This document shows, piece after piece, positions 28,114 through 44,277 of a stretch of 64,000 nucleotides of DNA. Each line of letters opens with the position of its first letter. The first letter of the stretch is position 1. Made by a program: the position numbers and the translations under genes. The notes beneath the pieces are model-generated. The model had not been told where the DNA came from and made no database searches. It saw only the letters and a list, made by a program, of their open reading frames with translations. The DNA lies in assembly GCF_009176545.1 (NCBI RefSeq), contig NZ_VTOJ01000001.1:1054001-1118000 (forward strand), read 5' to 3'. The DNA is from Salinigranum salinum. Its GTDB lineage: Archaea; Halobacteriota; Halobacteria; Halobacteriales; Haloferacaceae.

Positions 28114-28532
28114 AAACTGGGTTTTCCGGACCCGCCGCCTCTGCCTGCGTAATCCGCGCTCACGGTGACGTTGTCGATCGGGAACGCGAAGCTCACGGCG
28201 TCGTTCTTCGTTCCATCACGCGAGTACTGGCGCGGCGGCGGGTACACGTCGTTGCCTTTCCCGTCGAGCGAGGCGTAGACTCCTGGCGGGGGGTACACGT
28301 CGTTACCCTTGCCGTCGAGCGACGCGTACAGACTCGGCGGGGGGGTGGGAACGTCGTTGCCCTTACCATCCAGCGACGCGTACAGATCCGGGGGATACGG
28401 GTCGTTGCCTTTCCCGTCCATGGGTTCGGCTGCGGCCGTTCCGACTCCGCCAACGACCCCGGCCGTCAGAACGGCCGCGATGAGGAGTGCTTTGATTACA
28501 GTGCGTCCAACCGTGATGTCGATTGCTTTCAT
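28110..28532 (-). CDS. small secreted repeat protein (DGKGND repeats)
   Basis: 140 residues from ATG 28532 (a GTG immediately upstream is alternative). A clear signal sequence (VIKALLIAAVLTAGVVGGVG then TAAAEP) is followed by four or five repeats: MDGKGNDPYPPDL, YASLDGKGNDVPTPPPSL, YASLDGKGNDVYPPPGV, YASLDGKGNDVYPPPRQ and a degenerate YSRDGTKND. The C-terminal 35 residues differ (VSFAFPIDNVTVSADYAGRG). No cysteines and no C-terminal anchor. It is probably exported; the proline-rich Asp/Gly/Asn repeats could bind cations or be a processed precursor, but this is a guess. The stop codon coincides with the edge of the IS-like remnant. Confidence 0.75.
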   Translation of the reverse strand: MKAIDITVGRTVIKALLIAAVLTAGVVGGVGTAAAEPMDGKGNDPYPPDLYASLDGKGNDVPTPPPSLYASLDGKGNDVYPPPGVYASLDGKGNDVYPPPRQYSRDGTKNDAVSFAFPIDNVTVSADYAGRGGGSGKPSL

Positions 28533-28663
28533 CACAGATGTATCCAGGTCGGGGGATTCGATGGAGACAGATGCTTACTATTGAAGCGCGTTCCGGGATA
28601 CGCATTCTAGATAGCTAGAGTTGTGCGCTCGGCGGCTCCGATCTCGCTTCGTTCGGCAGAAAG

Positions 28664-28685
28664 AGCCGGTGGAGGGGTTGTAACC
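28664..28685. repeat. left attachment site (attL) of the island
   Basis: 22 bp that copy the 3' end of tRNA-Thr at 44205-44226 in the same orientation: the first 13 bases (AGCCGGTGGAGGG) are identical and 19 of 22 match overall. It lies 44 bp before the integrase gene. The intact tRNA is at the other end, as expected for recombination into a tRNA 3' end. Confidence 0.8.
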
Positions 28686-28692
28686 TAAGGTT
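28682..28692. promoter_or_regulatory. palindrome in the integrase promoter
   Basis: Perfect 11-bp odd palindrome AACCTAAGGTT between attL and the integrase, about 37 bp before its ATG. It could be a binding site for the recombinase or a regulator. GGGAGT just before the ATG is a candidate ribosome-binding site. Confidence 0.4.
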
Positions 28693-28728
28693 TACATCCG
28701 TGTAAGTTATCCATCGGTTCAGGGAGTC

Positions 28729-29979
28729 ATGCCAACAGATCCCAAGGAAGCCGTCGAGCGTCTCGAAGACCGTATCAGAACCAGCGAGGAAATCAGACCG
28801 AACGACCGAGACAATCTTCTTGCGTTCATTGACCGTCTTCGTCTCCTTCGTACGGTGTACGGTGATCACCGCCGGGAGAAACTCCTCCGACACTGCACTA
28901 TTCTCGCAGAGGAACTCAACCAGCTCACAGAGGCGCTTGACGATCGCGAAGCGGCTGAGTCGATCGTCAAGTGGATCAATCGTAACTACCCTAACGAGGA
29001 GACGAACAAGGACTATCGAGGTGCTCTCAGGGCTTTCGCTAAGCGAGTCACAGAGGGTCCGGATATCCCTTCGAGCGTAGACTGGGTACCTTCTGGTACC
29101 AGCCGCAACTATGATCCAAAACCGAACCCATCCGAGATGCTTCATTGGAAAGACGACGTGATTCCGATGATTGACGAGACCCGGAACGCTCGCGATGCCG
29201 CACTTATCGCAGTTGCTTGGGACTCTGGTGCTCGAAGTGGAGAGATCCAGGCGATGTCGGTCGGAGACGTCTCTGATCACACTCACGGGCTGCAGATCAC
29301 TGTCGATGGAAAGAGAGGACAACGTTCCATCACGCTGTTTAACAGTGGTTCCTATCTGATTCGGTGGCTTCAGGATCACCCATGTTCGGATCAGCCAAAC
29401 GCTGATCTCTGGTGCAAGTTGAGTTCCGGTGAGAGTATCAGTTACCAGATGTATCGAAAGGCCCTGAATCAGGCTGCAGACCGAGCAGGCGTCACCAAAC
29501 CCGTGACGCTGACGAATTTCCGTAAGTCGTCTGCATCTCATCTCGCGAGCCAGAACGTGAATCAGGCCCACATCGAGAACCACCACGGTTGGAAGCGGGG
29601 TAGTAAAGTTGCCGCACGATACATAGTTATCTTCGGCTCGGACAGCGACAGAGAGCTCGCAAAAGCGTACGGTCTCGAGGTTGATGAAGAAGAAACCGAA
29701 CCGATTGGTCCTCTTAGCTGTCCTCGTTGCCAGCGCGAAACGCCCCGACATGAGGAGTTCTGTGTTTGGTGCGGGCAGGCACTTGAGCCCGGAGCCGTCG
29801 AGTCGGTTAGGCAGACAGAGCGTGACGTCAGAGATGCAGTGTTCCGCCTCGCTCGGAGCGATCCTGAACTCCTTACGGAAAGGGAACGGATTGAGGGGTT
29901 GATGCGCCTCGTCGAGAGTAGACCTGACCTGATTGATGACGCCGAAAGATACCTGGACGCTCTCGAATCTACCAGCTGA
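28729..29979 (+). CDS. tyrosine recombinase/integrase with C-terminal zinc ribbon
   Basis: 416 residues. A SAM-like N-terminal domain (about 10-110) is followed by a catalytic domain with R169 (DSGARSGEI), K195 (DGKRGQR), R265 in LTNFRKSSAS (Thr at the usual first His of HxxR), H286 in HHGW, and nucleophile Y298 in AARYIVIF. A zinc ribbon (CPRCQRETPRHEEFCVWCG) comes after residue 330, then a helical tail. This domain order is typical of haloarchaeal integrases of integrative elements. It probably integrates the 28.66-44.23 kb island into tRNA-Thr; attL is 44 bp upstream. GC is lower than in chromosome genes. Confidence 0.92.
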   Translation: MPTDPKEAVERLEDRIRTSEEIRPNDRDNLLAFIDRLRLLRTVYGDHRREKLLRHCTILAEELNQLTEALDDREAAESIVKWINRNYPNEETNKDYRGALRAFAKRVTEGPDIPSSVDWVPSGTSRNYDPKPNPSEMLHWKDDVIPMIDETRNARDAALIAVAWDSGARSGEIQAMSVGDVSDHTHGLQITVDGKRGQRSITLFNSGSYLIRWLQDHPCSDQPNADLWCKLSSGESISYQMYRKALNQAADRAGVTKPVTLTNFRKSSASHLASQNVNQAHIENHHGWKRGSKVAARYIVIFGSDSDRELAKAYGLEVDEEETEPIGPLSCPRCQRETPRHEEFCVWCGQALEPGAVESVRQTERDVRDAVFRLARSDPELLTERERIEGLMRLVESRPDLIDDAERYLDALESTS

Positions 29980-29981
29980 CA

Positions 29982-30182
29982 TCAATCCTGCTCCTCATTC
30001 GAGAGTCGGTCGATCTCCCGTTTTATCTCTTCACGATCGCGCTCGTCGCCGCCTCTGAGCAGAACTGCCAGAGCCAATCCTCGGACCGTTTCGTCGGTTC
30101 CGTGTTTGAGGATGTATGCAAGATCTTCTCGATGATTCTGTACGTATTCTCTGACTTCGGGTGGTGTCCGGTTGTTTTCCAT
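29982..30182 (-). CDS. small acidic protein next to the integrase (66 aa)
   Basis: 66 residues from ATG 30182 (MENNRTPPEVREYVQNHRED); ATG 30185 adds one residue. It is all-helical, acidic, ending REEIKREIDRLSNEEQD. Similar small proteins sit convergent to integrases in haloarchaeal proviruses and islands. It could be an excisionase-like or regulatory factor, but no helix-turn-helix is obvious. Its stop is only 2 bp from the integrase stop on the other strand. Confidence 0.7.
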   Translation of the reverse strand: MENNRTPPEVREYVQNHREDLAYILKHGTDETVRGLALAVLLRGGDERDREEIKREIDRLSNEEQD

Positions 30183-30376
30183 CATTCGGCGGCCGCAGAG
30201 CGCCACCCTCACTGGGTAAGGAAAACCTCTTTACTACCACACACTCTATTTTGGGTGTGGAGTGGCCTTCCTCGGCGCTCCTCGTTCTCGGTTCAAAACG
30301 GTATCACGGCATGCCTGGCAGCAACGACGTGATATCGTTCGAATCTACTCCTTTGAGAGCCATCGATTACAGCATG

Positions 30377-30413
30377 TTAGGTTAGTTTTCCCTTTTGTCA
30401 GGAAAACACCTAA
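30377..30413. other. hairpin (TTAGGT-GTTTTCC / GGAAAAC-ACCTAA)
   Basis: Left arm TTAGGT + TA bulge + GTTTTCC (30377-30391) pairs perfectly with GGAAAAC + ACCTAA (30401-30413), giving 13 base pairs around a 9-nt loop. It works as RNA on either strand or as a DNA cruciform. Confidence 0.75.
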
Positions 30414-30466
30414 GCTGATCCCACACAAAGACGCTGTTGGGGACGATCGACTGCAACCCTGAAGCT

Positions 30467-30504
30467 AGCAAACAACACGTGATTTCTCCCTCATGTTGCT
30501 TGCT
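30467..30504. other. hairpin with one mismatch
   Basis: AGCAAACAACA (30467-30477) pairs with TGTTGCTTGCT (30494-30504) with a single A/C mismatch. It lies between the 13-bp hairpin and the terminator-like structure. Confidence 0.6.
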
Positions 30505-30515
30505 GGTGTCGTCTG

Positions 30516-30544
30516 TCGCCCGGTCTTTCCCTGGGCGATTTTTT
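30516..30544 (+). terminator. intrinsic-terminator-like hairpin with T6
   Basis: TCGCCC (30516-30521) pairs with GGGCGA (30533-30538), followed directly by six T (30539-30544). Archaeal terminators need mainly the T-run, so the call depends on that. If functional, it would end a short plus-strand transcript that includes the two upstream hairpins. Confidence 0.5.
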
Positions 30545-31339
30545 ATCCCGAATCCATTTACACCACCAAATACTCCAAGCATCATTAAATTTTCTTTAAC
30601 CAACATATGTTCCAGTGCGTTGGTTAAATCCCGCTCCGGAAGTTTCGAAGCTCTTTGGATGCCGGGATAATTAAAAAATGAGCGTTCAGTAATCCATTAT
30701 CTGATTGAACAAATAAGAAAATATCTTGAGTTAGCAGCCATCCGCAGCTCACAATTCCAACCCCTTATTGCTAGGTAAATCACCCACGTCACGGTCTCTC
30801 AAAGTAACATAGCCGTATGAATACCTGAACTGGTGCGTTGTGGCTGGGATCTCGGCTCCAAGCCCTCGTAGTATTAAGTTAAATTAAACACTGGGGGGTG
30901 GGGGGGTGTGTGTGTCTACCCCGTTTCGTAAGGCATGTCGTAGTCTGTGTGCACCATTTGATTTGAACGGGTGTTAATGCATACTCCAGTCGAAATTGGA
31001 GTAAGACACCCATGAACATGAGCCGGATCCGAGAGTCTTGAGACGAACGCCTCAATGGATACGATAGTATCAAGTTCTGATAGAGACAGCGTATAAGACT
31101 TAGAGAGTATACTGCTCACACGTATTTCAAGGCGATTATCGGGCGCAGTTACACCCGGGTTCTTATTCTATCATAAGCAAACGTGATATCGAGGTCCCAG
31201 TACTCTAGCTCAGGCACCCAAAGACCGATCACTACTCCTCCCATAGATTCAAAAAGGCGGACTTGATCCAATTGCTGGCCTTCATTCATTTTTCAGCCGA
31301 AGATCACTTTTTTAATCGGGTGATGAGAGAGTCATATTC

Positions 31340-34300
31340 ATGATCGATGAAGGCGGACGTGTCTTTCTTTCTGACGAGCCGATTGAATCGCCCGAACAGG
31401 ACAAGTTCGAGCATCGGGAGTACGTTGATGCGCTCGAACAGATCCTCGAAAACGCTGAACCTCGGTGGAATATAGGTGTGTTCGGCAAGTGGGGCACTGG
31501 GAAGAGTTCGATAATCAATCTATTGTTCGACCGGCTGCAAGACAATCCAGCGTTCGACGATACGATCTGTGTCGAGTTCGATGCATGGACACACGCTGAG
31601 GAGTCGATTCGAACCGACCTGCTTCTCGGTATCGATTATCAACTTGGTGAAAAAACGGATACGAAGGTCGATGGCGAATACGGGATTCTTGGGGAGGACT
31701 ACATAACGGAAGAACTCTACGACATTACAGAAGAGACAGGGAGCGAGGATCTCTCGTATCGGGAGTACACCGCTAGGCTCCTTTCCCATTCCAAGCCCGT
31801 TACTGGAATCGTTGTGATAGCCGCCGTAGTTCTAGTTCTGGGCGTTCTCGCCAACGTACTGAATCTCGTCGGTGTTCTAAATCCAGACCCTGACCTAATG
31901 GCCACCGTCAATAGCATCCTCCAAATCGCCATTCTCCCACTGTTTTTGAGTCTCTTCATTTTCATGGCGAAACAGGTGGAAGACGCGACCTCCACCCTCC
32001 GTCAACGATACCCTCGGAAGGAATGGTCCGGCGCATATGAGCAATTGTTCGAAGAGATGCTCACCGATCTGGTCAAGAAAACTGAGAAAAAGAAGGTCAT
32101 CATATCGGTAGACAATCTCGACCGTTGTGAGAGCGACACCGTCTATGACGTCCTCGTCTCGTTAAAGACGTTCATGGAGAACGACCGCTGCACCTACATC
32201 ATCCCCTGTGACGATGAAGCACTTCTCAGTCACGTGCAATCTATCGACAGAGGGGGGTACTTTGAGGAGCCCGAGAACGAACGTGAATTCTTACGGAAGC
32301 TGTTCCAAGCGCATGTCCGTGTTCCGCCGTTCACTAACGAGGCAATCTCCGACTATGCCAGGGAGTTGAAAGGGCAACTTGATGAGGACCTTGGAGAGGA
32401 CTACGACGACGAGGTTCTGTCCGTAATCACGAAAGCATATGCCCGAAATCCACGCCGTATCAAACAGGCATTCAACCGGCTGACGACCCTGCGAATGTTG
32501 GCTCAAGAAATGGAAGCGACAGACCGTATGCGTGAGGGTGCAATCACAGATAATTACCCGTTTTTGGCCAAAGTATCGATACTACAGGAAGATTTTCCAG
32601 AATTCTATCGGGCGCTTCAGACGAATCCACGATTACTTGATGAATTCAATGACTACTTCGCCGGGCGTGTTTCCGAATCCGAACGAGAGAAGGAGCTGGC
32701 TGCGTATTTTGATCCTGATGAGAACGAAGACAACGGCTCAGTTGAAGGGCTGAGGGATTTTCTTCGGACAACCCGATACATTACTGACGACAACCCTCGT
32801 CGCTTTATTTACCTGAGCGAGCCATCATATGCACTCACCCTAGGAGACGACGAGCGCTTCGTACAGGACCTCCGTACCGGTCAGGTGGATAAAGTACGTG
32901 ATGAGTTGAAATCGCTTTTCGAAAGCGACGAGGACTTCACTCCCTATCTTGAGGCTATTCGAGATACGCTCGATGAGTGGAGCCACCTCAATTCGGAACT
33001 ATTCAACATCGTTGAGGGGTTGATGGAAGTTTTCAGCGCTCTCGACGAAGATTCCCAATCCAGAGTGGCTGCGGTTGTGAGCGAATACTTGGTCTCCGCT
33101 GACCGGAGACACTTCTTGGAGGATCTTGACCCACATCTCTCGTTCCCGCTCCTCCTCAAAATGCCTCATCGGGATTCTCAAATCCTTTTTAATGCATACG
33201 GACAACTAGCTGCCGACCCCGAGACCCTCCACGAGAACGTGCTTGAAGCATTTGTTTCTCACAGTGACGAAATCCCACGCTCTGCGCGGCGACCCCTTGC
33301 AGAAAATCTCACTCATCTGCGACAGAATCTACAGATAGATGAGTTCAAGCGGGCACTCGACATGCTTCACTCTTCAGCCCCAGCACGGGAGAAGTTCGCC
33401 ACGGCAAGCCTGTTGAAAGAGGCTGTTGAGCTAATCGAGTTAGATAACCAACATCAGTTCCAGAACCACGAGTACTACACTAAATTCGACCCGCAAGCGT
33501 CAATCGAGGCTCGAAGCACGTTTGTCAAAAAGCTGATTGACCTTTACAATGATGTTGAGGATGACAACGTCAAGAATCTCAACCAGAACCTTGCTGACAT
33601 CCTCCTTGATATCGAACCGGACTTGACAACACCGGCCACTCGCCGTCTCTATGACGAATTCCAGGGGTTAGTTCATGCGCCAAGTGGCGATGAAAGACAA
33701 CTCGTAGAAACGCTCTTTCATTTCTACGATGTTCTCGTGCCGAGCGATCAAGACGAATTCCGCCAACAGTGTGTAAACCAGATCCAGAACTGGGGCAGCA
33801 CCGCACAGCAGTATCTCAAGTGGGCAGAGCAGTACGACGTCCCACTACTCAATTCGGAAAACGCGGTGGAAGCAGCTCTCGCCCCGTTCCCCAACCAGAA
33901 CTCGAACGCAAATCTATTCACTAAAACGATCCTGCCCCTAATCCCTGAGGAATTTGACGAGGAAGTGACGGCGAAGAAACTACTCGATATTCTGGATAGC
34001 AGTGACGACTCGCATGCACAACTCGGGGCGGAAATTTTCTTGACCGCGCCCGAACGCTTCTCCAATGTCCAGGATTCGGTTGTTGATAAGTGCCTCAGCA
34101 AGGCGAACAGGACGAACGACATTAAGAGTAAGCAGACGTTTCTGACCGCGGTTTCAGGAGTGTTTACCGAATTGAAGGACAGCGATCAAGAACTATTCCT
34201 TAGCCAGCTGACTGAGCTGGCGCGTGGGAGTAATCGGGACAAGCAGGCCTTTGCCCAGGTGTGGCGAGAAGTTGAAGACGATCTTGAACCCGGACACCGG

Positions 34301-34699
34301 CGCACTATTGGACAGAACGTTCTCAGCGTGCTGGAGGATGAAGCGAGCGATCAAAATCAGCAGGTCCCGAATGATGAACTGGTGAAAGTTCTCCAATCGG
34401 TAACGGACTACCTTACGACGAATGCACATGAGGAATTTGTCCAACGGTTGAGCGATAAGTTGACAGATGGCGATATAGGATGGCAACAGAAGCAGGATAT
34501 TGTCGGGCAGCTTGTAGCGTTCGAAGATCTCGCTGGGCAAGAGGATCTGGTATTGACGCGTATCGAGGGAATGCTAAAGCAAAACTCGCAGGGGCGGCTC
34601 CACCAGACGACTGAAAAGAAACTGAACATACTCGAACAGCGTGACAAAATCGATCAAGAGCGAATCAAGGAAATCCGGAAGACCTACCTAGAGACGTAA
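31340..34699 (+). CDS. giant KAP-family P-loop NTPase with two membrane helices
   Basis: 1119 residues. Walker A is GVFGKWGTGKSS (46-57), the KAP form. Two hydrophobic helices (about 153-178 and 190-210) sit between Walker A and Walker B (VIISVDNLDR, 253-262), the KAP hallmark. After the NTPase domain (to about 440) come some 680 residues of helical repeat-like sequence with no named family. The protein should be membrane-attached with the NTPase inside the cell. A TATA-like TTTTTTAAT about 30 bp upstream of the ATG suggests a near-leaderless transcript. Many KAP NTPases are in defence islands, so an antiviral role is inferred from the neighbours. Confidence 0.9.
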   Translation: MIDEGGRVFLSDEPIESPEQDKFEHREYVDALEQILENAEPRWNIGVFGKWGTGKSSIINLLFDRLQDNPAFDDTICVEFDAWTHAEESIRTDLLLGIDYQLGEKTDTKVDGEYGILGEDYITEELYDITEETGSEDLSYREYTARLLSHSKPVTGIVVIAAVVLVLGVLANVLNLVGVLNPDPDLMATVNSILQIAILPLFLSLFIFMAKQVEDATSTLRQRYPRKEWSGAYEQLFEEMLTDLVKKTEKKKVIISVDNLDRCESDTVYDVLVSLKTFMENDRCTYIIPCDDEALLSHVQSIDRGGYFEEPENEREFLRKLFQAHVRVPPFTNEAISDYARELKGQLDEDLGEDYDDEVLSVITKAYARNPRRIKQAFNRLTTLRMLAQEMEATDRMREGAITDNYPFLAKVSILQEDFPEFYRALQTNPRLLDEFNDYFAGRVSESEREKELAAYFDPDENEDNGSVEGLRDFLRTTRYITDDNPRRFIYLSEPSYALTLGDDERFVQDLRTGQVDKVRDELKSLFESDEDFTPYLEAIRDTLDEWSHLNSELFNIVEGLMEVFSALDEDSQSRVAAVVSEYLVSADRRHFLEDLDPHLSFPLLLKMPHRDSQILFNAYGQLAADPETLHENVLEAFVSHSDEIPRSARRPLAENLTHLRQNLQIDEFKRALDMLHSSAPAREKFATASLLKEAVELIELDNQHQFQNHEYYTKFDPQASIEARSTFVKKLIDLYNDVEDDNVKNLNQNLADILLDIEPDLTTPATRRLYDEFQGLVHAPSGDERQLVETLFHFYDVLVPSDQDEFRQQCVNQIQNWGSTAQQYLKWAEQYDVPLLNSENAVEAALAPFPNQNSNANLFTKTILPLIPEEFDEEVTAKKLLDILDSSDDSHAQLGAEIFLTAPERFSNVQDSVVDKCLSKANRTNDIKSKQTFLTAVSGVFTELKDSDQELFLSQLTELARGSNRDKQAFAQVWREVEDDLEPGHRRTIGQNVLSVLEDEASDQNQQVPNDELVKVLQSVTDYLTTNAHEEFVQRLSDKLTDGDIGWQQKQDIVGQLVAFEDLAGQEDLVLTRIEGMLKQNSQGRLHQTTEKKLNILEQRDKIDQERIKEIRKTYLET

Positions 34700-35299
34700 G
34701 CCAAGTTTCCCACGGCATAGTTACTGATCCGTTCTACGCGCTGATGCCTGTTAACCTCGTCCCAACAAGGAATCATCGTCGTATCATGGTGATGTACCCT
34801 CCCAGTCTCTCCATCTCATTGAGAGTAGTGTCTAAATGTATCGTCCTGGCCGGATTTGCCATTTTAATACAATAATCCCCCCTTGGCGTAATAGAGCGTC
34901 GTCCGTATCAACCGATCCCATTGTCCAAATTCAGGAGTTAGTGCTGTGCGAAATTTGCGCGCTGTATTCAGCACTGGCAAAAAATCAATCATCGGTTGAG
35001 AGAATTTTCAATACGGTTGCTTACTATACCGGACTAATCCACACCTTTTCGAAGATTCTGACGGTATCCGGAGTCATGCATCAACATATGAGGAACCCCG
35101 CGGAACCGGGTCTTTGTGTAATAGGTGGGGGTTGCACGCTGAGAATATGCATTCTCCAGAACTGCACACACGACTGTCGTTGAAGTGTGCAGATTCACTC
35201 CAATCGAGTCTCCTCGGCGACGAAATACTGCAGTTGAGCCGGCCTATCCAAGCCGAGTATATAAGTGAACACTGGTTGCGTCACCCGCGAAAGATACCT
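34700..35299. other. 600-bp gap after the KAP gene
   Basis: No supported gene. The open frame at 34836-35183 has unusual composition (Cys/His/Ile-rich) and no motif. The right end holds the promoter of the following gene (TATATAAG, 35258-35265). Confidence 0.5.
35258..35265 (+). promoter_or_regulatory. TATA box of the RHH-like gene
   Basis: TATATAAG, 42 bp before the ATG at 35300, one of the best TATA boxes in the island. It fits a transcript with a short leader of about 10 nt. Confidence 0.6.
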
Positions 35300-35608
35300 A
35301 TGGTCCCGACGTGTGCACAAATGATGCGACTCAGAATGCCCGAATCGAGGAAGCGACTGTATAAGCGACTTCTCGAGGCGACCGGCGAGTCAACGAAGTC
35401 AAAGGCACTCGACCGTGCTGCCCGGTACTACTGCGAGATGCGCGGAGACACGGCAGTCGTTCCCGTCGGTGCGATCGGCGAGCTTCTGGCGGCGGCCGAG
35501 GAGCGCGGATCACTCACGGGCGAGGAGATCGCGGCCATCCTCGACTGTCAGTGGCTTCGCGTTGAGTATGAAACCGAGTGGTTGGTGGGCGATGGTGATA
35601 ACCGATAA
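35300..35608 (+). CDS. haloarchaeal small DNA-binding-like protein (102 aa)
   Basis: 102 residues from ATG 35300 (MVPTCAQMMRLRMPESRKRL). The core RLRMPESRKRLYKRLLEATG followed by STKSKALDRAARYY looks like a ribbon-helix-helix-type strand-helix-helix. The rest (AVVPVGAIGELLAAAEERGS, LTGEEIAAILDCQWLRVEYE) is helical. Very similar small proteins are frequent in haloarchaeal plasmids and proviruses. A regulator of the island is plausible but unproven. It converges on the mcrC-like gene. Its GC content is higher than in the KAP gene. Confidence 0.7.
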   Translation: MVPTCAQMMRLRMPESRKRLYKRLLEATGESTKSKALDRAARYYCEMRGDTAVVPVGAIGELLAAAEERGSLTGEEIAAILDCQWLRVEYETEWLVGDGDNR

Positions 35609-35651
35609 GCGACCGTGAGGTGCATTCATACTGCTCGCGGCAATCCGTGCG

Positions 35652-36980
35652 CTACTGGATCTCCTCCGGAACCCAGTTGGTTGAGGATCCACTTGACAGG
35701 AGGTTCTCCGCAGAAATATGTGTGATTCGCCCATCCAGTGGAGATGCCTCATTCACCTCGATGTCATCCGTAATGAGGAGTCCACGGACATCGACATCAT
35801 GTTCGGTGAGATAACCGTCCTTCTGCGCGAACTCGACGTATTTCAGTAGCTCCTCAAGCCCCCGGGTGAACGTCTGCTGGCTGTCGCTATACTTGATCTC
35901 GCCGAGAACAACCGCAGTTGGCGTTCCTCTCTCTCTGGAGTCGTACACCTCAATAACGAGATCCGGGCGGCCGTGGAATAATGAGGGCTCAGTGCTGCTA
36001 CCATGGAACGCCTCGGTCAATTTTTGATGCTGGCGCTGGACGCGCCTAACACGTTCAGCATAAGCAGTCTCCACACCGTTCAGTTCGAAAAGCGGCACAT
36101 AGAACGAAAGGCTACCACTTCGGTCGTGATAGACGTCGACGGTACGCTGCTGGTCCTCCAAGATGGCTAACTGCTTAGCACCCGATTCGATTGGCTGAAG
36201 GCGCCATGCCTGTGAGCGGAGCCCGTGCAGGAGCCGGAACACACAAAAAAGTTCGAAGAGCCGCGGTAACCGTTCAGGCACTACGAGCGTGTCTGTCAGC
36301 AGTTTAGAGATGTCTGCATCATCGTATGCTCCAGATAGCAAGCGTCGATAGCGGTCGTATAGCGTGAATGCCTCTGTATACAGCGTCTGTCTGGACCGTC
36401 GAGCCGTGTTAAGCATTCGACGTGTGACCTGAATATCTGCTCCGTCCTGTATTCGATTCAGATGGACGTTCCTAGCGTACACTCTGTCGAACATCGCGAT
36501 GCGCTCGGCTGGCCAGGCGTTCGTCCGCCATTCGTAATCAATCGCGGCGACGTCCTCATCCACCGTCGAGTGGATCATCCAGAGAAGCTTCTTCAGGACG
36601 AGGTTCTCGTCAATGTTGTACTCCGTGTATGGAGTCTTACAAGCGAACCTGGTTCGATCACCGGATTGATCGGCGTATCGGAGACGTGTCGTCGCCGGCC
36701 AATCGATCCCTCCCCGGACCTCTCCTTGTGTGACCTCACGTTCGCGCTGGTTAGCGGTCTTGACACGCCGGAGTCTCTCTTGAAGTGCTTTGATGAAGTT
36801 GACAACCTCGTCACTGAGGCAATAATGGATTCGCTTGAGACGGTCGAGATTCTCGATGTTTAAATCTGTGATGTCAAGATGTCGAGTGACTTCTCGCTGG
36901 TTGATCGTCCCGTTTCGGAGATACGTGACCAGCTCCTCCTGAACGCTATCCACCAGTATGGTGCGGCCCAGTTTACTCAT
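35652..36980 (-). CDS. McrC-like PD-(D/E)XK nuclease (DUF2357-like)
   Basis: 442 residues from ATG 36980 (MSKLGRTILVDSVQEELVTY). The N-terminal 200 residues are helical. The C-terminal part has the nuclease helix LPRLFELFCVFRLL (about 238-251) and the catalytic pair RPDLVIEV (338-345) and EIKYSD (361-366), a PD-(D/E)XK site as in McrC and DUF2357 proteins. It would be the endonuclease partner of the McrB-like GTPase. The start overlaps the mcrB-like stop by 8 bp, so the two are translationally coupled. It is the last gene of the three-gene minus-strand module. Confidence 0.8.
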   Translation of the reverse strand: MSKLGRTILVDSVQEELVTYLRNGTINQREVTRHLDITDLNIENLDRLKRIHYCLSDEVVNFIKALQERLRRVKTANQREREVTQGEVRGGIDWPATTRLRYADQSGDRTRFACKTPYTEYNIDENLVLKKLLWMIHSTVDEDVAAIDYEWRTNAWPAERIAMFDRVYARNVHLNRIQDGADIQVTRRMLNTARRSRQTLYTEAFTLYDRYRRLLSGAYDDADISKLLTDTLVVPERLPRLFELFCVFRLLHGLRSQAWRLQPIESGAKQLAILEDQQRTVDVYHDRSGSLSFYVPLFELNGVETAYAERVRRVQRQHQKLTEAFHGSSTEPSLFHGRPDLVIEVYDSRERGTPTAVVLGEIKYSDSQQTFTRGLEELLKYVEFAQKDGYLTEHDVDVRGLLITDDIEVNEASPLDGRITHISAENLLSSGSSTNWVPEEIQ

Positions 36981-39117
36981 CAGAGCGTGGCGGGAGGTCG
37001 AAGAAGTCCTCAGCCTTCCGTTCGAGCCACTCTCCCTCAAGCGTGAGATCAACCGTGCCCGTCTCCGTCTGCACCTCGGTCGCGGTCAAGGATCCGACGA
37101 GGCTCCGCTGTTCCTGAGGTGCCATTCCTTCGAGCTGGGGGAACACTAATGCGACGACCGCGTCGGTGAGAGCAGGACCTGGATCTTCGCTCACTTCCGG
37201 CCCCGTCGCAGCGAGGTACCCAAGGATGTCCCGGACGATGGAGGGCCCAATGGTCTGGTGTTGATTCACTTTCTGCCAGACGACAGCGACCTGTTCATAC
37301 GTCGTCTCCAAAACGCCTCGTAGTGACTCGTCAGCGTTGAGCCACACGGTAGCGTAGTTCTCGTCTTCGTTTGGATCCAGCAGTGAGGTCCGGACTCGAC
37401 CGTTCCTCCTGAGCCGTGGGACTCCAAGATGGATGAAATTAAAACGCCGCATGAACGCATATGAGAGTTCATAGAGCGATGTTTTATCATAGGTGTTCAT
37501 TGTGGCGAGGAGTCGCCAGCTAGGAGTGACTGGAAAGATATCCTGGTTCGTGACGATCGATCTAAGACGATCGTGTGTGGTCTCTTCATCGAGCGATGCG
37601 ATCTCGACTGGTTCGTCCCGCTCGTAGGGGAGTTGTACCGAGTCTCCAGAGAGTACTGAGAATAACTGACCGAACGCTTTGTCGATATCAGAACGGTTGA
37701 TCTCGTCGATTACCAACCATTCATTCCTAATCTCGCCATCTTTACGAAAGCAGTCCAGAAAGATTCGAGGCTGAAACACCAGTTCGTCTCCCTCAGCCGA
37801 TCGGTTAGGCACGTATCCACCGATTGTGTCGAAGGTGGTCCATTCAGCTGTTGCCGTCGTGAACCGATAACCGTCCACAATTTCGCCCTGAGATTCCGTT
37901 ACCTGCTCACAGATATGCTTGGCCAACTTTGTCTTCCCCGTCCCGGGTGGTCCAGTGAAAATGATGTGTTTTCCAGCATTGAGAGATGCATTCACTTGTC
38001 GGCGGATGCGAGCCCTTTCACCTCCGTGGAAATAGAGATTATCTGGCAACCCGATATCCATATGGGGTAGTTGGAGTCGTCCTTCCAGTCTAGAAGCTTG
38101 TGACCCCTCGACTTGTCCTTGTTCAAGCAGATAATCTCCAGCCTCTTGGCTCAGATTAAATAGGTACTGCTGATTGATCCCAGCTTTGTTGATCGGATAA
38201 TATTTTTCCAGACGGACGTCTTCCTGCCAGAGGTACGAAAAAATGTCTGAGAACTGTAATGGCGAGTCGAATCTGTGAATCTCGATGTCTACCCGTCTCT
38301 TTTCTTCACCATCAACAGTCACAATGTATGGATGTGATACAACTTCTGAGTATGCAATTATCTCCCCATTCTGGTAATTGAATACAGTATCCCCCTCTTG
38401 AAGTTTGGCGAGGTCGTAATTCGGAAAATCGGTTCGTGGGGCTTGGAGAAAACCTTCCTCTATCTCCTCAGGATTGTTACTCTGGTTCACCCAATAGTAC
38501 GGAGCTAGTTCGCTGGTTGATTCGTCGGGTGGACAGAGCCGTCTTCTGCTTTGACTCTTGATTCCGAATAGAGCTGACGAGGGATCTCCGGTAGATGAAT
38601 TTTCTCTGAGGTGCTGGATGAAGTTAGAAATCGACTCGTATTCATCGTAGAAATTCGAGTTCGGTTTGTCAAAGTTAATCCGACTAAACGCATCATATGG
38701 GAATCCTGAATAACCCATCAGATTCCAAAATTCGTCTGCTGGTTTGTAGATATCGTAAACCCCGACCAGCCGAATTACAGTCGTATACGGATCGCCTGTT
38801 GTATATTCCCATCCGATATCTTCAGCGAACTGTTCCGCGCTGTCGACACCGAGTATATGTGATTCGGCAATCTCACCGAGTGCAATATATTCATCCGTTT
38901 CACGATCCGCGAATAGCAACCAGTCGCCTGTCAACCCAGTTACGTCGGTGCGAGTACCCCATATCCGGGAGATCTCTTCGGAAACTGTACCTGAAAAATA
39001 CTTCTCAATGACGGCTGAGTCGACACCCTCAATGACCGTCTTCCTGTAATTTTCACGCATGACCGGAGGGTCACCCTCCGAGATTGGAACCTGATATACA
39101 TCTGGATCTTGAGACAT
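36973..39117 (-). CDS. McrB-like AAA+ GTPase with two PUA/EVE-like domains
   Basis: 714 residues from ATG 39117 (MSQDPDVYQVPISEGDPPVM). Residues about 45-150 form a PUA/EVE-like domain (RIWGTRTDV...GDWLLFADRETDEYIALGEIAES, WNLMGYSGFP). Residues about 207-325 form a second, EVE-like domain (YYWVNQSNNPEEIEEGFLQA). The AAA+ domain follows with Walker A GPPGTGKT (389-396), Walker B WLVIDEINRSD (468-478) and the McrB-type sensor MNTYDKTSLYELSYAFMRRF. McrBC-type systems translocate on DNA and cut when the reader domain meets a modified base. The two PUA/EVE domains are likely readers here; the target base is unknown. Confidence 0.88.
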   Translation of the reverse strand: MSQDPDVYQVPISEGDPPVMRENYRKTVIEGVDSAVIEKYFSGTVSEEISRIWGTRTDVTGLTGDWLLFADRETDEYIALGEIAESHILGVDSAEQFAEDIGWEYTTGDPYTTVIRLVGVYDIYKPADEFWNLMGYSGFPYDAFSRINFDKPNSNFYDEYESISNFIQHLRENSSTGDPSSALFGIKSQSRRRLCPPDESTSELAPYYWVNQSNNPEEIEEGFLQAPRTDFPNYDLAKLQEGDTVFNYQNGEIIAYSEVVSHPYIVTVDGEEKRRVDIEIHRFDSPLQFSDIFSYLWQEDVRLEKYYPINKAGINQQYLFNLSQEAGDYLLEQGQVEGSQASRLEGRLQLPHMDIGLPDNLYFHGGERARIRRQVNASLNAGKHIIFTGPPGTGKTKLAKHICEQVTESQGEIVDGYRFTTATAEWTTFDTIGGYVPNRSAEGDELVFQPRIFLDCFRKDGEIRNEWLVIDEINRSDIDKAFGQLFSVLSGDSVQLPYERDEPVEIASLDEETTHDRLRSIVTNQDIFPVTPSWRLLATMNTYDKTSLYELSYAFMRRFNFIHLGVPRLRRNGRVRTSLLDPNEDENYATVWLNADESLRGVLETTYEQVAVVWQKVNQHQTIGPSIVRDILGYLAATGPEVSEDPGPALTDAVVALVFPQLEGMAPQEQRSLVGSLTATEVQTETGTVDLTLEGEWLERKAEDFFDLPPRSDE

Positions 39118-39349
39118 TGAGTACCATCCTGCACTCAAGCAGTAGACTAAATTCTTACTTCGGTGCTACCTGATTAACCTCTGAAAACTGCGTCGAGCTT
39201 AGACGTATGCACCGCCCACACCCTGCATGATTACATCTGTTCTAGGCTGGTACTTGATGCCGGATCCGCTTAGATAGCGTCAGTAATCGGTTATCCCGAA
39301 CTGCGAGTCAAGTACGAATTGAGGTTACGCGAGTACCGGTGACAGAACG

Positions 39350-40540
39350 TCACCGTGCTATCTCGGAGTTGTGGTATTGTAGGTACACCTCTCCGACCTC
39401 GTGATCGCTGTGAACGCTTAGTGAGTGACCCGAGATCTCGGTATCGTATTCGTGCGTGATTTGCAGTGAGTCAGGCTCAATTCTAACCATGCCGTTGTCG
39501 AAATCGGCGTGGTGATTCGGACACAGGACAATCATGTTCTCACTCACGTCGGGCCCATCGTGTGGACTCCCGAGAGGCTGGAGATGGTGAACCTCTGAAT
39601 ACCCCTTGTTCGAACTTTGCTGTAGTCGCGTCTCACAAATCTGGCACCGGTGATCGTATAAGCATTTCAGCTCTTCTACCAGCCTCTGGTCCCTCTGTAC
39701 TTGATCTTGGACCGTACTCCGACGTTTAGGGCTCTCTGTTCCCAGCTGCTCGAGAACGGTCTCACTAGTCTTCTCTACTTCCCTTGGCCGCCAGAGAATC
39801 GCAGATTCGATTGATCCATATTCTCGTCGTAGCTCCTCTGTCACTATGTCTGAGACCCTCATAAAACCGGTTACGATCTGCCGATCTCCGTATCCCAAGA
39901 GGCTCCAAACCTCGCCAATGTCCGGTCCCCAGTCGTCGTACTCCGTAACCAGGTAGACCCACTTGCTCTGTGGATTGTTCCAGAGCCAGTCACCGATCAC
40001 GTCGCTTTCGATGGTCCTCTTGACCCGCCCCGAGGCGATGAAGTCTCCATCGTGGTAATACAGGACGAGATCGCCGGGGCACATTCGATCAATATAAGAT
40101 TGGTGAGCAGGCGAATCAGTCTCCTCGATACCCCAGATCCGCGTAGGCAGTTCGTGCTCGAGTTCTTCGGGAACAGTTGCCCACCCTTCAGTCACTTCGC
40201 TTCGAACCGTCCGAGCGAAACGATCAATCCACTCGTCCGATACTGGTTGCAGGTAGAGCGCTGGAAAATTATAGAACCAACTACCGTCTCGTCGCTCAAC
40301 TCTGCTGTTCTCCTTCCGTTTCAGTTGTTGCTGGACCCTACGAGTAGCGTGCATCCACTCGGGCTGGTCAGTGCCTCCGTCACACACTTCTGAACAGAGG
40401 TAATCGTCGTCACAGAGATCTGGATATGCAGACTTCACTGCCGGATATACCTCCTCAGTCGTGTCTCGAGTTCCCGAGGGAACACAGAGCAGCTCTGTCT
40501 CCAGTAGACGATCTTGGAGAGCACGCACATCGTCCCTCAT
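39350..40540 (-). CDS. HNH endonuclease with PUA/EVE-like domain
   Basis: 396 residues. An N-terminal winged-helix-like region (about 1-120) is followed by a PUA/EVE-like domain (about 130-232: RIWGIEETDS..., CPGDLVLYYHDGDFIASGRV, VWSLLGYGDR). A C-terminal HNH domain (about 295-352) has C299xxC302, H318-H319 (EVHHLQPLGSP), C340 and H343-H344, a full zinc and catalytic set. The PUA/EVE part resembles the first domain of the neighbouring McrB-like protein. Such architectures suggest modification-dependent cleavage (type IV restriction). It is the promoter-proximal gene of the minus-strand module, 232 bp before mcrB-like. Confidence 0.86.
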   Translation of the reverse strand: MRDDVRALQDRLLETELLCVPSGTRDTTEEVYPAVKSAYPDLCDDDYLCSEVCDGGTDQPEWMHATRRVQQQLKRKENSRVERRDGSWFYNFPALYLQPVSDEWIDRFARTVRSEVTEGWATVPEELEHELPTRIWGIEETDSPAHQSYIDRMCPGDLVLYYHDGDFIASGRVKRTIESDVIGDWLWNNPQSKWVYLVTEYDDWGPDIGEVWSLLGYGDRQIVTGFMRVSDIVTEELRREYGSIESAILWRPREVEKTSETVLEQLGTESPKRRSTVQDQVQRDQRLVEELKCLYDHRCQICETRLQQSSNKGYSEVHHLQPLGSPHDGPDVSENMIVLCPNHHADFDNGMVRIEPDSLQITHEYDTEISGHSLSVHSDHEVGEVYLQYHNSEIAR

Positions 40541-40962
40541 GAGTGTCTCTCACGTTGTTCCAGCGTTGTTGTAGGTCTATCTCTGACCATCGCAGTCTAA
40601 TCGTTGATCGCTCGTGCGTCCCATTATATACCGATTTATGTAGCGAGGGTCCAGAGCGCGGTGCTGGAGTAACCGAACATAGTTCGTCAATCCGACCTCG
40701 ACTTAGCTGGACTCCGCAGTTAGATACTCTCCTCAGATCAACTGAGACTATACACACTGTCGAGGGTCAGGGCAGAGCCTGTGTGCATACATCGAGATCT
40801 CTGAATACATCAAGATACTACCCCAAGGGGTGGCGGGTTTCGACAGTACGTCCGGAGAGGAGTCATCAGTGAGTAATAACCAATAATATATTTGATATTA
40901 GATGGTCGTATGGGAGTCACGGCTCCGGTAAATTGATGTCACGCGTCACTAATAATCATATA
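40541..40962. other. divergent promoter region between HNH and ATPase genes
   Basis: 422 bp, no gene supported. A TATA-like TATATAAT on the minus strand (complement of 40624-40631) is about 88 bp upstream of the HNH gene. Before the ATPase gene, the stretch AATAATATATTTGATATTAG (40883-40902) is strongly AT-rich and is the likely promoter. Confidence 0.5.
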
Positions 40963-42222
40963 ATGCACGTAAGCGATATTTTCCCACATAATAGTTATCC
41001 TGAATACACATACGTCAAACGAGAAAAGCGTGATTTGGAAGAAAACCTCGAAGACGCACTTCGAATGTCTGGGAGTATTGTTTCTATTTCTGGACCTTCT
41101 AAATCAGGAAAGTCCATGCTAGTCAAGCGGGTCGCAAAGAACAGTCATATCGAACAAATTGCAATCGTAAACGGTTCAGAAATCGAAAGCACCGGAGATC
41201 TGTGGCGACAAGCTCTAGATAATTTGGGTACTCCTACTACTACTGAACGCCATTCCTCTGAAACGGATGAGAGTGGAAATACAATAACAGGAGGAATAAG
41301 CACGGTAGTTAGTGCAGGTGCTGATAAACATTCACGGAGCGCCGAAACAGACACTGATGTCAAAGTCGATTCTAGGCGAGGACTAAGCAAACTCATCGAG
41401 GTTGTTGACAAGGACAAATTCGTTCTGCTAATCGATGATTTTCACTATATAAAATCAGATGTTCAATCGGATATCGCGGAGGCGATCAAAGCCGCAGCTG
41501 AACGGGGAATTTCGATTTGTGTGGCACTTGTCTCATATCGGAGCGAAAACCTTGAGAAGGTGAACGATGATCTGGCGGGGAGAGTATATAACATCAAACT
41601 GGATTACTGGCACGAACATGAGCTAAGAGAAATTGCTGAGCTCGGCTTCACAGTCCTGAACGTAGAATTTTCTGAATCTCTAATTGAGACTCTTGTGAGA
41701 GAATCTGCAGGCTCTCCATTATTGATGCAGCTACTCTGTTACAGCACATGTCTCCACAACGACGTTCGCGAGCCACAAGATGAACATCGAGTCATCGAAA
41801 TGGAAGAGGGCGATCGAGATGGGATATTCGAGGAAGCAATAAAGTGGGGTGGTTACTCAGACGTAGTTTCAGCGATTAACGACGGAGCGACGACCCGTGG
41901 AGAGGGTCGAAAACTGTATCCATTAAAAACAGGATCAGAGGGCGACTATTACGAGTGCTGTCTAAGGGCCATCGCTGCAAACCCTCCTGAATTCTCGTTC
42001 ACCCGTAACGAGTTATATAATCGCGTAAAGCACGAATGCGCAGGCACTCACCCACAGTCAAATCAAGTCTCTCTCTTCTGTGAACAGATGGACAAGATAA
42101 CCAAGGAAGAACGCCCAGACTCTCGATTAGTAGATTGGGATGAAGATGAAGACACTCTCCACATCTCTGAGCCAGGACTTCTATTCAATATCAGGTGGTC
42201 CGTTCGATTGGGGATTGAGTAG
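40963..42222 (+). CDS. STAND-like P-loop ATPase
   Basis: 419 residues from ATG 40963 (MHVSDIFPHNSYPEYTYVKR); ATG 40936 is an in-frame alternative. Walker A is SGPSKSGKS (about 43-51) and Walker B FVLLIDDFHYI (153-163). A glycine-rich inserted loop (TGGISTVVSAGADKHS, about 109-124) lies between them. The C-terminal half is helical with a possible winged helix (FSFTRNELYNRVKHE). An 'S-G-P-S-K-S-G-K' P-loop after a PEYTYV-type N-terminus is a bacterial/archaeal ATPase family that I recall as often near defence genes. Membrane segments are absent. The gene is AT-rich. No sensor or effector domain is recognisable. Confidence 0.78.
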   Translation: MHVSDIFPHNSYPEYTYVKREKRDLEENLEDALRMSGSIVSISGPSKSGKSMLVKRVAKNSHIEQIAIVNGSEIESTGDLWRQALDNLGTPTTTERHSSETDESGNTITGGISTVVSAGADKHSRSAETDTDVKVDSRRGLSKLIEVVDKDKFVLLIDDFHYIKSDVQSDIAEAIKAAAERGISICVALVSYRSENLEKVNDDLAGRVYNIKLDYWHEHELREIAELGFTVLNVEFSESLIETLVRESAGSPLLMQLLCYSTCLHNDVREPQDEHRVIEMEEGDRDGIFEEAIKWGGYSDVVSAINDGATTRGEGRKLYPLKTGSEGDYYECCLRAIAANPPEFSFTRNELYNRVKHECAGTHPQSNQVSLFCEQMDKITKEERPDSRLVDWDEDEDTLHISEPGLLFNIRWSVRLGIE

Positions 42223-42461
42223 TAGCAGCCACAATTGGCTTGCGTCGATGTTTGTAGGACTGAAGTATTTTGAACTAGTACCCTTAGGTACACCCCTAAC
42301 AGAGAACCCGACAGCTCCGGTCGGATTCGTTCCCTCACGTAATCCTGAGAAGCACTGTCTCCGAATAGTCGGTCTACAACAGCCTACGAACAGCCCCACC
42401 AGTCGGCAACATATGTCGCGATTACCGTCCCTCGACAGTGTTGCCACTCAGCAGTCGGTCG

Positions 42462-44120
42462 CTACCCGAGCGCTTCCCACACCCTTCCGCCGATCGTCCG
42501 GGTTCTCTCCTCAGCCTCGATGGACCGAAGCTCGTGTTCTGGTTCTGTGATTCGGTACCGGTAGCGCCCTGACCGATACGTGACGGAATCCCTCTTGCAG
42601 TCTTCCCACAGTGAGAGACCCTCCCTGAGTAACCTCTTCACCTCTTTCCGGTGTTCCTCGTCGGAAAGTTCTCCGAGATCGAGGAATACTGAATCGTCTC
42701 TCTCATTCACCCGCACGTCGTGTTTGGCAGCCCATGCGATGAAAGCAGAGGTGCGTCTGTCCAATCCTCTCTCTGCCGCTTCGAGAGCTTTTGCACCAGC
42801 TTCGAGCGCTCGTTCACTCGCTCTCTTGGCTTCTGTGACTGCCTCGTGAACGAGCTCTGCAACGTAATGCGAACGGAGACTAACTGACCCGTATTCTCTC
42901 TCGACCAACTCACTAATTCGATCCAGTGCCCGCCGAACACTGTCTGGGTGCCGGTCGGTCTCCTCTGCGATACGCTTCGGAGAAACAGTCCCCCCGTCAG
43001 AAACGAGGACACTGAGTGATTCCCACTCGACCGGACTAAGACCGTCTGCGATATGCTTGATGACGACACTCTCCTGGGACTGCCGAATCCGAGTTAGGTT
43101 CAGGTCTATGATTTGCCGTTCCCGATCGCTCTCGATCGCGGGGAAATAGGCATCTTTGACGTAGGTGTCTCCACCGGGACGAACGTCGATTCCGCTATTC
43201 GCGAGTACGCTGAGTACACTCTCTTCGAGTTCGTGTGTTAGCTGCTCGATCTCTTCGCTACTCACACCCAACTTTCCCTTCCACCGACTTACTTGGTAAG
43301 ATGCACCGAGTTTCGGATGACGGAGTGGGTTGTTCTCTGGGAAGGAGAGTGCCTCTCTCGCGTAGTAGTGCTTGATCTCTTTCGGAAGTTCGTGGGATGG
43401 GAAAGCTTCCTGGATCCGCCGCTGATCAAGGGTTACGGTATGGTAGTACCCAGGTAGGTTCTTACCGTCCTCTGTCTGGTCGTTCTGGACTAACTTACGG
43501 TATCCTTCCCGGTCGTTCTCCAGCAAGTGTCCCATCTGAACGATTGGACCGTCTCGAGCGTGAACTGGACCACTCACCTCGTGATTGAGCCGGATGTAGC
43601 GCTCAGCATCCTGGATGTTACTATACGGGTGAGGACCAGAGAAGTAAGTCGAGTCAATCCCGACTGCTTCAGCTGCACACTGTAGAAGGGGTAGGTATCT
43701 CTTGAACTCGATATTCGACCCACTCACTCGAACATTCACACCCTCACCAAATCCCTCGGGCACGGGTACCCGGCTGCCTCCCTTCGACTTCATTCCCACC
43801 CAACGTGGAGCGATATGTGCGTTGAATTTTCGCTGACCTACGGAATCGTCCTTGCTTGAAATCGCGAGACGGAACTCTCGGAGTGTCTCAAGCTCGAATC
43901 GTGTCCCGCTCGGTGTCGTTTTTCCAGGGTGTTCTAAGCCGCTCTCTTGGAAGTAGAGCGTAACTGCCCACTCCTCACCCTCAGCAGTGAAAGATGCTCT
44001 CTGTGACCCCTCTCCTTCTTTCACCCGCTTGTCTGCAGCGAAGTACGGGAAGAGACCGCGATCGTTGAAGAGGTAGTTCGCACTGAACTCGTGCGGTGCC
44101 GTCTCGATTAGGACGGTCAC
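42462..44120 (-). CDS. haloarchaeal mobile-element winged-helix protein (DUF7845-like)
   Basis: 552 residues from GTG 44120, chosen because GGGAGGT lies 7-8 bp upstream; GTG 44129 also is in frame. The N-terminal 330 residues (VLIETAPHEFSANYLFNDRG..., then KFNAHIAPRWVG) match a haloarchaeal element-borne family I associate with DUF7845. A winged helix-turn-helix follows (about 370-425: LSPVEWESLSVLVSDGGTVS, SPKRIAEETDRHPDSVRRAL). A long Ala/Glu coiled coil (about 440-475) precedes the last 80 residues. Related genes sit at the end of integrative elements, so a replication or regulation role is suggested. It ends the island next to tRNA-Thr. Confidence 0.72.
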   Translation of the reverse strand: MTVLIETAPHEFSANYLFNDRGLFPYFAADKRVKEGEGSQRASFTAEGEEWAVTLYFQESGLEHPGKTTPSGTRFELETLREFRLAISSKDDSVGQRKFNAHIAPRWVGMKSKGGSRVPVPEGFGEGVNVRVSGSNIEFKRYLPLLQCAAEAVGIDSTYFSGPHPYSNIQDAERYIRLNHEVSGPVHARDGPIVQMGHLLENDREGYRKLVQNDQTEDGKNLPGYYHTVTLDQRRIQEAFPSHELPKEIKHYYAREALSFPENNPLRHPKLGASYQVSRWKGKLGVSSEEIEQLTHELEESVLSVLANSGIDVRPGGDTYVKDAYFPAIESDRERQIIDLNLTRIRQSQESVVIKHIADGLSPVEWESLSVLVSDGGTVSPKRIAEETDRHPDSVRRALDRISELVEREYGSVSLRSHYVAELVHEAVTEAKRASERALEAGAKALEAAERGLDRRTSAFIAWAAKHDVRVNERDDSVFLDLGELSDEEHRKEVKRLLREGLSLWEDCKRDSVTYRSGRYRYRITEPEHELRSIEAEERTRTIGGRVWEALG

Positions 44121-44204
44121 AGAGCCCACCTCCCGACAACCGAGAGAGCCCGATCAGAGACCCCACGGAGTAATGTCTCTATGGGATGTAAACCAAACGT
44201 AGGA

Positions 44205-44226
44205 AGCCGGTGGAGGGATTTGAACC
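44205..44226. repeat. right attachment site (attR) inside tRNA-Thr
   Basis: The 3' 22 bp of the tRNA-Thr gene (plus-strand reading starts AGCCGGTGGAGGG), repeated imperfectly as attL at 28664-28685. The tRNA is intact, so integration preserved its sequence. Confidence 0.8.
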
Positions 44227-44277
44227 CTCGGCCTATTCCTTACGAAGGAATCGCTCTGCCAGCTGAGCTACACCGGC
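44205..44277 (-). tRNA. tRNA-Thr (anticodon CGT)
   Basis: Acceptor GCCGGTG (complement of 44271-44277) pairs with CACCGGC (complement of 44206-44212); the discriminator is T at 44205. The D-arm has GCTCAGCTGGCAGAGC. The anticodon stem TTCCT/AGGAA holds loop TCGTA with anticodon CGT. The T-arm has GGGTTCAAATCCC. No intron and no encoded CCA. Its 3' half is the integration target of the island. Confidence 0.97.

Follow-up and report, generated by a model that had tools for sequence, protein, structure and literature searches.

We find that three neighbouring genes of Salinigranum salinum, encoding an HNH nuclease, a McrB-like motor and a McrC-like nuclease, probably make up two restriction systems of type IV (modification-dependent) that are independent of each other and travel as cargo on one integrative element in a tRNA-Thr gene. 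The genes lie in a 64,000-nucleotide stretch of contig NZ_VTOJ01000001.1 (forward-strand positions 1,054,001 to 1,118,000; the window), and a preliminary description had read them as a single modification-dependent module of three parts. From their domain organization they look like an Nd-YTH-HNH protein (Nd denoting an N-terminal domain of about 90 residues) beside a YTH-EVE-McrB/McrC pair, neighbours carried together and not one conserved three-part machine. In the two-gene McrBC system, the YTH-like and EVE domains would scan incoming DNA for modified bases, presumably flipping them out, the AAA+ ring would translocate, and McrC would then cut through its PD-(D/E)xK site. In the one-gene system, the YTH-like domain would sense a modified base, most likely N6-methyladenine (6mA), and the HNH domain would cut nearby without a nucleoside triphosphate (NTP), by analogy with TagI and VcaM4I, which have cytosine readers. 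The two would act independently of one another, and their function may be antiviral. The modification-dependent theme of the earlier reading is thus supported as a prediction; the three-gene module is not.

The separation into two systems is based on surveys of where these genes occur. Among 391 sampled haloarchaeal genomes, the HNH query (E value of 1e-20) matches 70 genomes at 77 places and the McrC query (1e-10) matches 125, and the two are found together in 20 genomes versus 22.4 expected if independent. Matches that include the HNH part occur in 58 genomes, 15 of which have McrC (18.5 expected), and matches spanning both YTH and HNH occur in 12, of which four have McrC (3.8 expected). Only in the window does an HNH gene at E 1e-20 lie within 10 kb of McrC on one contig; two other genomes (G177 and G302) have a match at this distance, but there the HNH query matches the YTH domain inside McrB itself, and the next nearest pairs lie 11.4 kb apart in G047 and 12.8 kb apart in G328. 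Profiles (E 1e-3) detect neither McrC nor the McrB motor in the available stretch of any of 22 loci of HNH relatives, each 9.3 to 25.2 kb long and chosen for YTH-HNH or Nd-HNH genes after exclusion of a partial locus (L129) and two short ones (L197 and L198); because L161 and L175 duplicate one record, the distinct places number 21. Annotations concur for Natrinema caseinilyticum, Halocatena marina, Halorubrum sp. PV6 and Halalkalicoccus jeotgali (plasmid gene tables incomplete), while the N. gelatinilyticum record carries no annotation. Three annotated McrBC relatives have no gene labelled HNH, though one (L172) has a DUF262 gene. A second HNH-McrB-McrC arrangement is therefore found neither in the 391 genomes, nor among 58 McrC-bearing loci described below, nor at the 22 loci of HNH relatives, and we reject a conserved three-gene system, for which repeated co-location would be expected.

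A YTH-like reader family and the Nd-YTH-HNH protein

The preliminary description had also proposed a PUA/EVE-like domain in the HNH protein and a reader type common to this protein and McrB. Both proposals survive in part, since the domains belong to the PUA superfamily and to one family, but that family is YTH-like and not EVE. Iterated profiles of HNH residues 93–248 and McrB residues 14–173 find each other reciprocally (E values of 1.1e-36 and 6.3e-32), uniting HNH 93–248 and McrB 12–175 in one family, and the joint profile, built from 41 of the 42 rows left after near-copy removal with one partial row dropped, has as its best solved match the YTH-like N-terminal domain of TgMcrB from Thermococcus gammatolerans (E 1.9e-11); the YTH protein Mmi1 is matched more weakly (E 0.1). 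Two tryptophans are the sole invariant columns (41/41) and align with tryptophans of TgMcrB and of Mmi1, which leads us to infer that they form a 6mA cage. The TgMcrB domain is reported to bind 6mA (PMC7641849, PMC11037411), and the second of these papers calls the known readers of 6mA in DNA surprisingly few.

Several results weigh against a YTH label for the window domains. The HNH clade taken alone (A7, 12 rows) gives no TgMcrB match and the clade of the window McrB (A8, 16 rows) reaches only E 0.081, so that the label is transitive: a third clade (A9, 15 rows) matches TgMcrB at E 3.6e-9, and A7 and A8 align to A9 nearly full-length, with probabilities of 99.6 (over 156 columns) and 99.5, respectively. 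Pfam EVE matches 7 of the 41 rows (best 2.3e-4) and no YTH model appears, and the AlphaFold models, with mean predicted local distance difference test scores of 46.6 and 40.7, are too poor to confirm any fold. In the window proteins themselves the EVE matches are noise (0.12 in the HNH protein and 0.052 in the second McrB domain), with none in the first McrB domain and none at E 0.001 anywhere in the genome of S. salinum, so that relatives were needed to reveal the reader domains. A classical EVE identity for the HNH-protein reader was tried and rejected, as the EVE alignment covers only 28 columns with a probability of 63, versus the 156 columns shared with A9; YTH-like and EVE profiles hardly align at all (probability 10.8 for YTH-like profile A1).

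These ambiguities bear on the base that is read. It is possible, though in our judgement doubtful, that the shared domain senses a modified cytosine as EVE and SRA domains do, the resemblance to YTH being one of fold only. According to PMC7641849, HHpred does not clearly tell most prokaryotic YTH-like domains fused to McrB or PD-(D/E)XK nucleases apart from EVE, the EVE matches within the family point the same way, and in one relative (L169) Nd precedes a weak SRA-type match (E 0.0058). What favours 6mA is that the best solved match of the family is a domain reported to bind this base, and that the invariant tryptophans fall on those of TgMcrB.

A tree of 68 YTH-like domains puts the one from the window HNH protein in an all-HNH clade of 13 (support 100/96) and the one from the window McrB in another clade, of 27 members (26 McrB and one stand-alone domain; 98/88); these separate, supported clades rule out a recent local copy of the reader between the two window proteins. 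Several long branches leave the deep joins of this tree unsure, but its well-supported branches force at least four changes of the HNH label. This suggests that one YTH-like family has moved repeatedly between HNH and McrB enzymes, moves that make reader swapping in type IV restriction measurable.

The nuclease part of the HNH protein is matched by Pfam HNH_2 (E 3.1e-8) and, over residues 243–394, by TagI in the PDB (E 2.7e-21), and it retains its HNH residues; we predict that the protein is an NTP-independent, modification-dependent endonuclease. TagI (SRA-HNH, PDB 6ghs) has a homologous HNH domain, whereas the window protein has Nd and a YTH-like reader in place of SRA, for which Pfam gives no match in this protein. 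VcaM4I (EVE-HNH, PDB 6yex) shares the plan of a reader joined to HNH, and its EVE domain matches the second McrB reader; unlike VcaM4I, the window HNH protein has a YTH-like reader and the extra Nd, and its HNH part matches TagI and not VcaM4I in the PDB. HHPV4I, HhiV4I and other PUA-winged helix-HNH enzymes (PMC10101028, PMC11037411) are likewise HNH enzymes of haloarchaea or their viruses; 6mA dependence is shown for HHPV4I, in which the winged helix senses 6mA, but no winged helix is identified in the window protein.

Nd itself (six rows) is without a meaningful Pfam or PDB match, the best PDB value being 0.33. C19, C43, C49 and H64 are invariant in the six rows and constitute a possible metal site. 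Nd is also present in three HNH proteins without a YTH match (L169, L197 and L198), and the pairing with an SRA-type match in L169 looks as if readers had been exchanged within one frame. At the loci examined, with repeats removed, we count 22 YTH-HNH architectures (including three that have Nd, and a few that are cut short or incomplete), 3 Nd-HNH without a YTH match, 29 HNH with neither, 4 YTH-EVE-AAA and 2 EVE-YTH-AAA, in a set fetched by likeness rather than sampled at random. A viral family, phrog_14240 (315 aa, function unannotated), matches residues 95–354 of the HNH protein (E 1.1e-10; window 39353–40540), a hint that viruses carry YTH-HNH relatives. A tblastn search of phage records with the window HNH protein gave no match, and scans of viral contigs returned one weak HNH piece and four non-related stretches, otherwise no match and no relative.

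In the literature searched (supplements excluded, subscription papers mostly outside), the term YTH-HNH occurs only in PMC11037411, as planned work, and among titles and abstract openings none concerns HNH and McrBC joined in one system, or a McrB with YTH and EVE in tandem. What appears to be new here is thus the YTH-HNH architecture, named but not characterised in those papers, together with a recurrent tandem YTH-EVE McrB, on one mobile element; the window offers a testable open YTH-HNH frame and a McrB with two reader types. A bolder extension, which we regard as rather unlikely, is an adenine-centred, two-layer type IV defence in which a stand-alone 6mA-dependent YTH-HNH enzyme would be backed by a McrBC whose YTH and EVE domains answer 6mA and 5-methylcytosine or 5-hydroxymethylcytosine, as an OR or an AND gate. 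Were it true, then to our knowledge YTH-HNH would be a new class of 6mA-dependent nuclease, and no restriction motor before this McrB would have combined readers of two distinct modified bases.

Proximity of the HNH gene to McrBC

That the HNH protein and McrBC cooperate as a single system by way of their shared reader type is very unlikely. The genes are adjacent on one strand, 232 bp separate the HNH stop from the McrB ATG, and the readers are of one family; a gap of this size does not imply coupling of all three genes, though they share a strand, and the two YTH domains sit in the separate clades noted above. What further favours cooperation, and weighs against two independent neighbours, comes from 58 loci that carry McrC, the window among them; 48 of these extend 5 kb or more to either side, and in 3 no McrB is found within 600 bp. 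At three of the 58, namely the window, L085 and L205, a gene matching the HNH profile lies within 5 kb of McrC. Against this, the HNH genes of L085 and L205 are weaker matches, lie on the strand opposite McrC and have no YTH match, so that only the window has the pair on one strand, and the genome counts given above show neither an excess of co-occurrence nor, at E 1e-20, another case with the genes less than 10 kb apart. We therefore retain the reading of two systems carried side by side. As a separate observation, the HNH gene of L205 (10744–11730, genome G408) encodes 328 aa and lies some 775 bp beyond McrC.

The YTH-EVE-McrB/McrC pair

The two PUA/EVE-like domains anticipated in McrB are indeed two PUA-superfamily readers, but the first is YTH-like and only the second is of EVE type. 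A 14-row profile of the second domain matches the EVE domain of VcaM4I (E 8e-7), and Gln, Tyr and Pro are conserved in 10, 12 and 5 of the 14 rows at the places of VcaM4I Q128, Y130 and P24, described as pocket and wedge residues (PMC7897488), Gln being the wedge and Tyr part of the pocket. The corresponding window residues (Table 1) were placed by counting along the VcaM4I alignment, in which the W82 place falls outside the aligned part. The motor is matched by Pfam AAA_5 (E 7.2e-14) and by solved McrB proteins from E 8e-8. At the 58 McrC-bearing loci, the McrB beside McrC has neither reader in 25 cases, EVE only in 15, YTH only in 12 and both in 4, and the tandem YTH-EVE order of the window recurs in three other haloarchaeal genomes (L074, L080 and L215).

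For McrC, the window protein has no meaningful Pfam or PDB match, and its identity as a McrC-like nuclease is taken from the overlap with McrB and from the PD..ExK site, which is invariant in an alignment of 32 of 45 domain-length matches after near-copy removal. The McrBC pair of the preliminary description is supported on these sequence features, though McrC is divergent from the Pfam McrC models. Some results count against this assignment or its functional reading. Pfam matches to DUF2357 and McrBC are weak and each confined to 3 of the 32 McrC rows; among 46 McrC proteins, 27 contain a simple PD..(D/E)xK[YF] text pattern, and for McrB 69 of 106 show all three motifs, some of the loci being cut; and the window McrB has Lys after Walker A, where TgMcrB has a guanine-stacking Trp (PMC7680126), which bears on the use of GTP.

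T. gammatolerans McrBC (PDB 6p0f, 6p0g, 6ut5) is comparable in its YTH-like N-terminal reader, the two Trp columns, the AAA+ NxxD motor and the McrC partner, but the window McrB has a further domain, EVE, between its YTH and AAA+ parts, its reader homology runs only through intermediates, and the residue after Walker A differs. In the EVE-McrB systems that Bell et al. 2020 describe (PMC7641849), McrB likewise carries EVE, often with additional domains, whereas the window McrB has a YTH-like domain and an EVE domain in tandem. Membership in the CoCoNuT systems was considered and rejected because the window McrB has NxxD where the CoCoNuT signature is NxD (PMC11090510). Most improbable is RNA targeting or abortive action of the kind proposed for CoCoNuTs in place of restriction of modified DNA, since, although eukaryotic YTH domains sense N6-methyladenosine in mRNA and most Type I CoCoNuTs have YTH-like domains (PMC11090510), the NxxD signature, the PD-ExK residues retained by McrC and an HNH domain of the TagI DNA-nuclease type all argue otherwise.

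Another, divergent McrBC is encoded on a 93-kb contig of the same genome (L095, G000:C3:42001–62000), together with a gene of the N6_N4_Mtase type at about C3:55838–57565. A search of the genome for N6 and N4 methylase families gives matches, so that self-methylation is possible.

Gene layout and the integrative element

The three genes are found on one strand where the preliminary description had placed them from the open reading frame (ORF) list, an assignment borne out by Pfam and PDB matches and catalytic motifs, and the last two overlap as it had noted. A TTG start at 39138 extends the McrB-like frame, of which the ATG at 39117 is the likely start.

Table 1 Features of the locus and the element, in window coordinates
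Feature	Position	Strand	Basis
Nd-YTH-HNH protein, 396 aa	39350–40540	-	ORF; HNH_2; TagI match; architecture
Nd, N-terminal ~90-aa domain of HNH protein	40271–40537	-	Alignment of 6 rows
YTH-like reader of HNH protein, residues 95–245 (Trp136, Trp187 invariant, 41 rows)	39806–40258	-	Iterated profiles, alignment
HNH (beta-beta-alpha-Me) nuclease domain, residues 276–371, TagI-like	39428–39715	-	Pfam, PDB search
McrB-like AAA+ motor with tandem readers, 714 aa	36973–39117	-	ORF; AAA_5; McrB structures
YTH-like reader of McrB (Trp53, Trp103 invariant, 41 rows)	38617–39105	-	Iterated profiles, alignment
EVE-type reader of McrB (Pro227, Gln316, Tyr318 at VcaM4I P24, Q128, Y130 places)	38122–38502	-	Profile, alignment
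McrB AAA+ domain: Walker A GPPGTGKT, Walker B VIDEINR, NxxD signature MNTYD	37099–38046	-	Pfam, PDB, motifs
McrB stop/McrC start overlap, 8 bp	36973–36980	-	Read from sequence
McrC-like nuclease, 442 aa, from ATG 36980	35652–36980	-	ORF; overlap; alignment
PD-(D/E)xK catalytic motif, P339 D340 ... E361 x K363	35892–35966	-	Invariant in 32 rows
Attachment (att) repeat, left copy, 13 bp	28664–28676	+	Exact repeat
Tyrosine integrase of element	28729–29979	+	Profile match
att repeat, right copy, 3' end of tRNA-Thr (44205–44277, minus strand)	44205–44217	+	Exact repeat

All three genes are carried by a 15.5-kb integrative element (28664–44217) in tRNA-Thr(cgt), with the integrase inside it, 52 bp from the left att repeat. 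The GC content is 51% between the repeats, versus 68% to the left and 69% to the right within the window. A near-empty site is found in the relative G166, where the counterparts of the left flank (window 28114–28621, 72% identity) and of the tRNA side (from 44205, 79%) are 246 bp apart. Weighing against the element as drawn, such a site is seen in only one of three same-genus relatives; the other two (G165 and G167) have the left-flank piece at another place.

Other genes of the element include a 1119-aa KAP NTPase (31340–34699), whose ATPase part is related to QatA (PADLOC, E 1.9e-18), and, on the strand opposite the HNH gene and upstream of it, a 429-aa AAA protein (40933–42222) that matches the candidate defence family PDC-S59 (PADLOC, E 1.4e-33). 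A DUF7845 protein (42462–44129), matched by phrog_3288 'transcriptional regulator' at E 1.1e-192, adjoins the tRNA end of the element.

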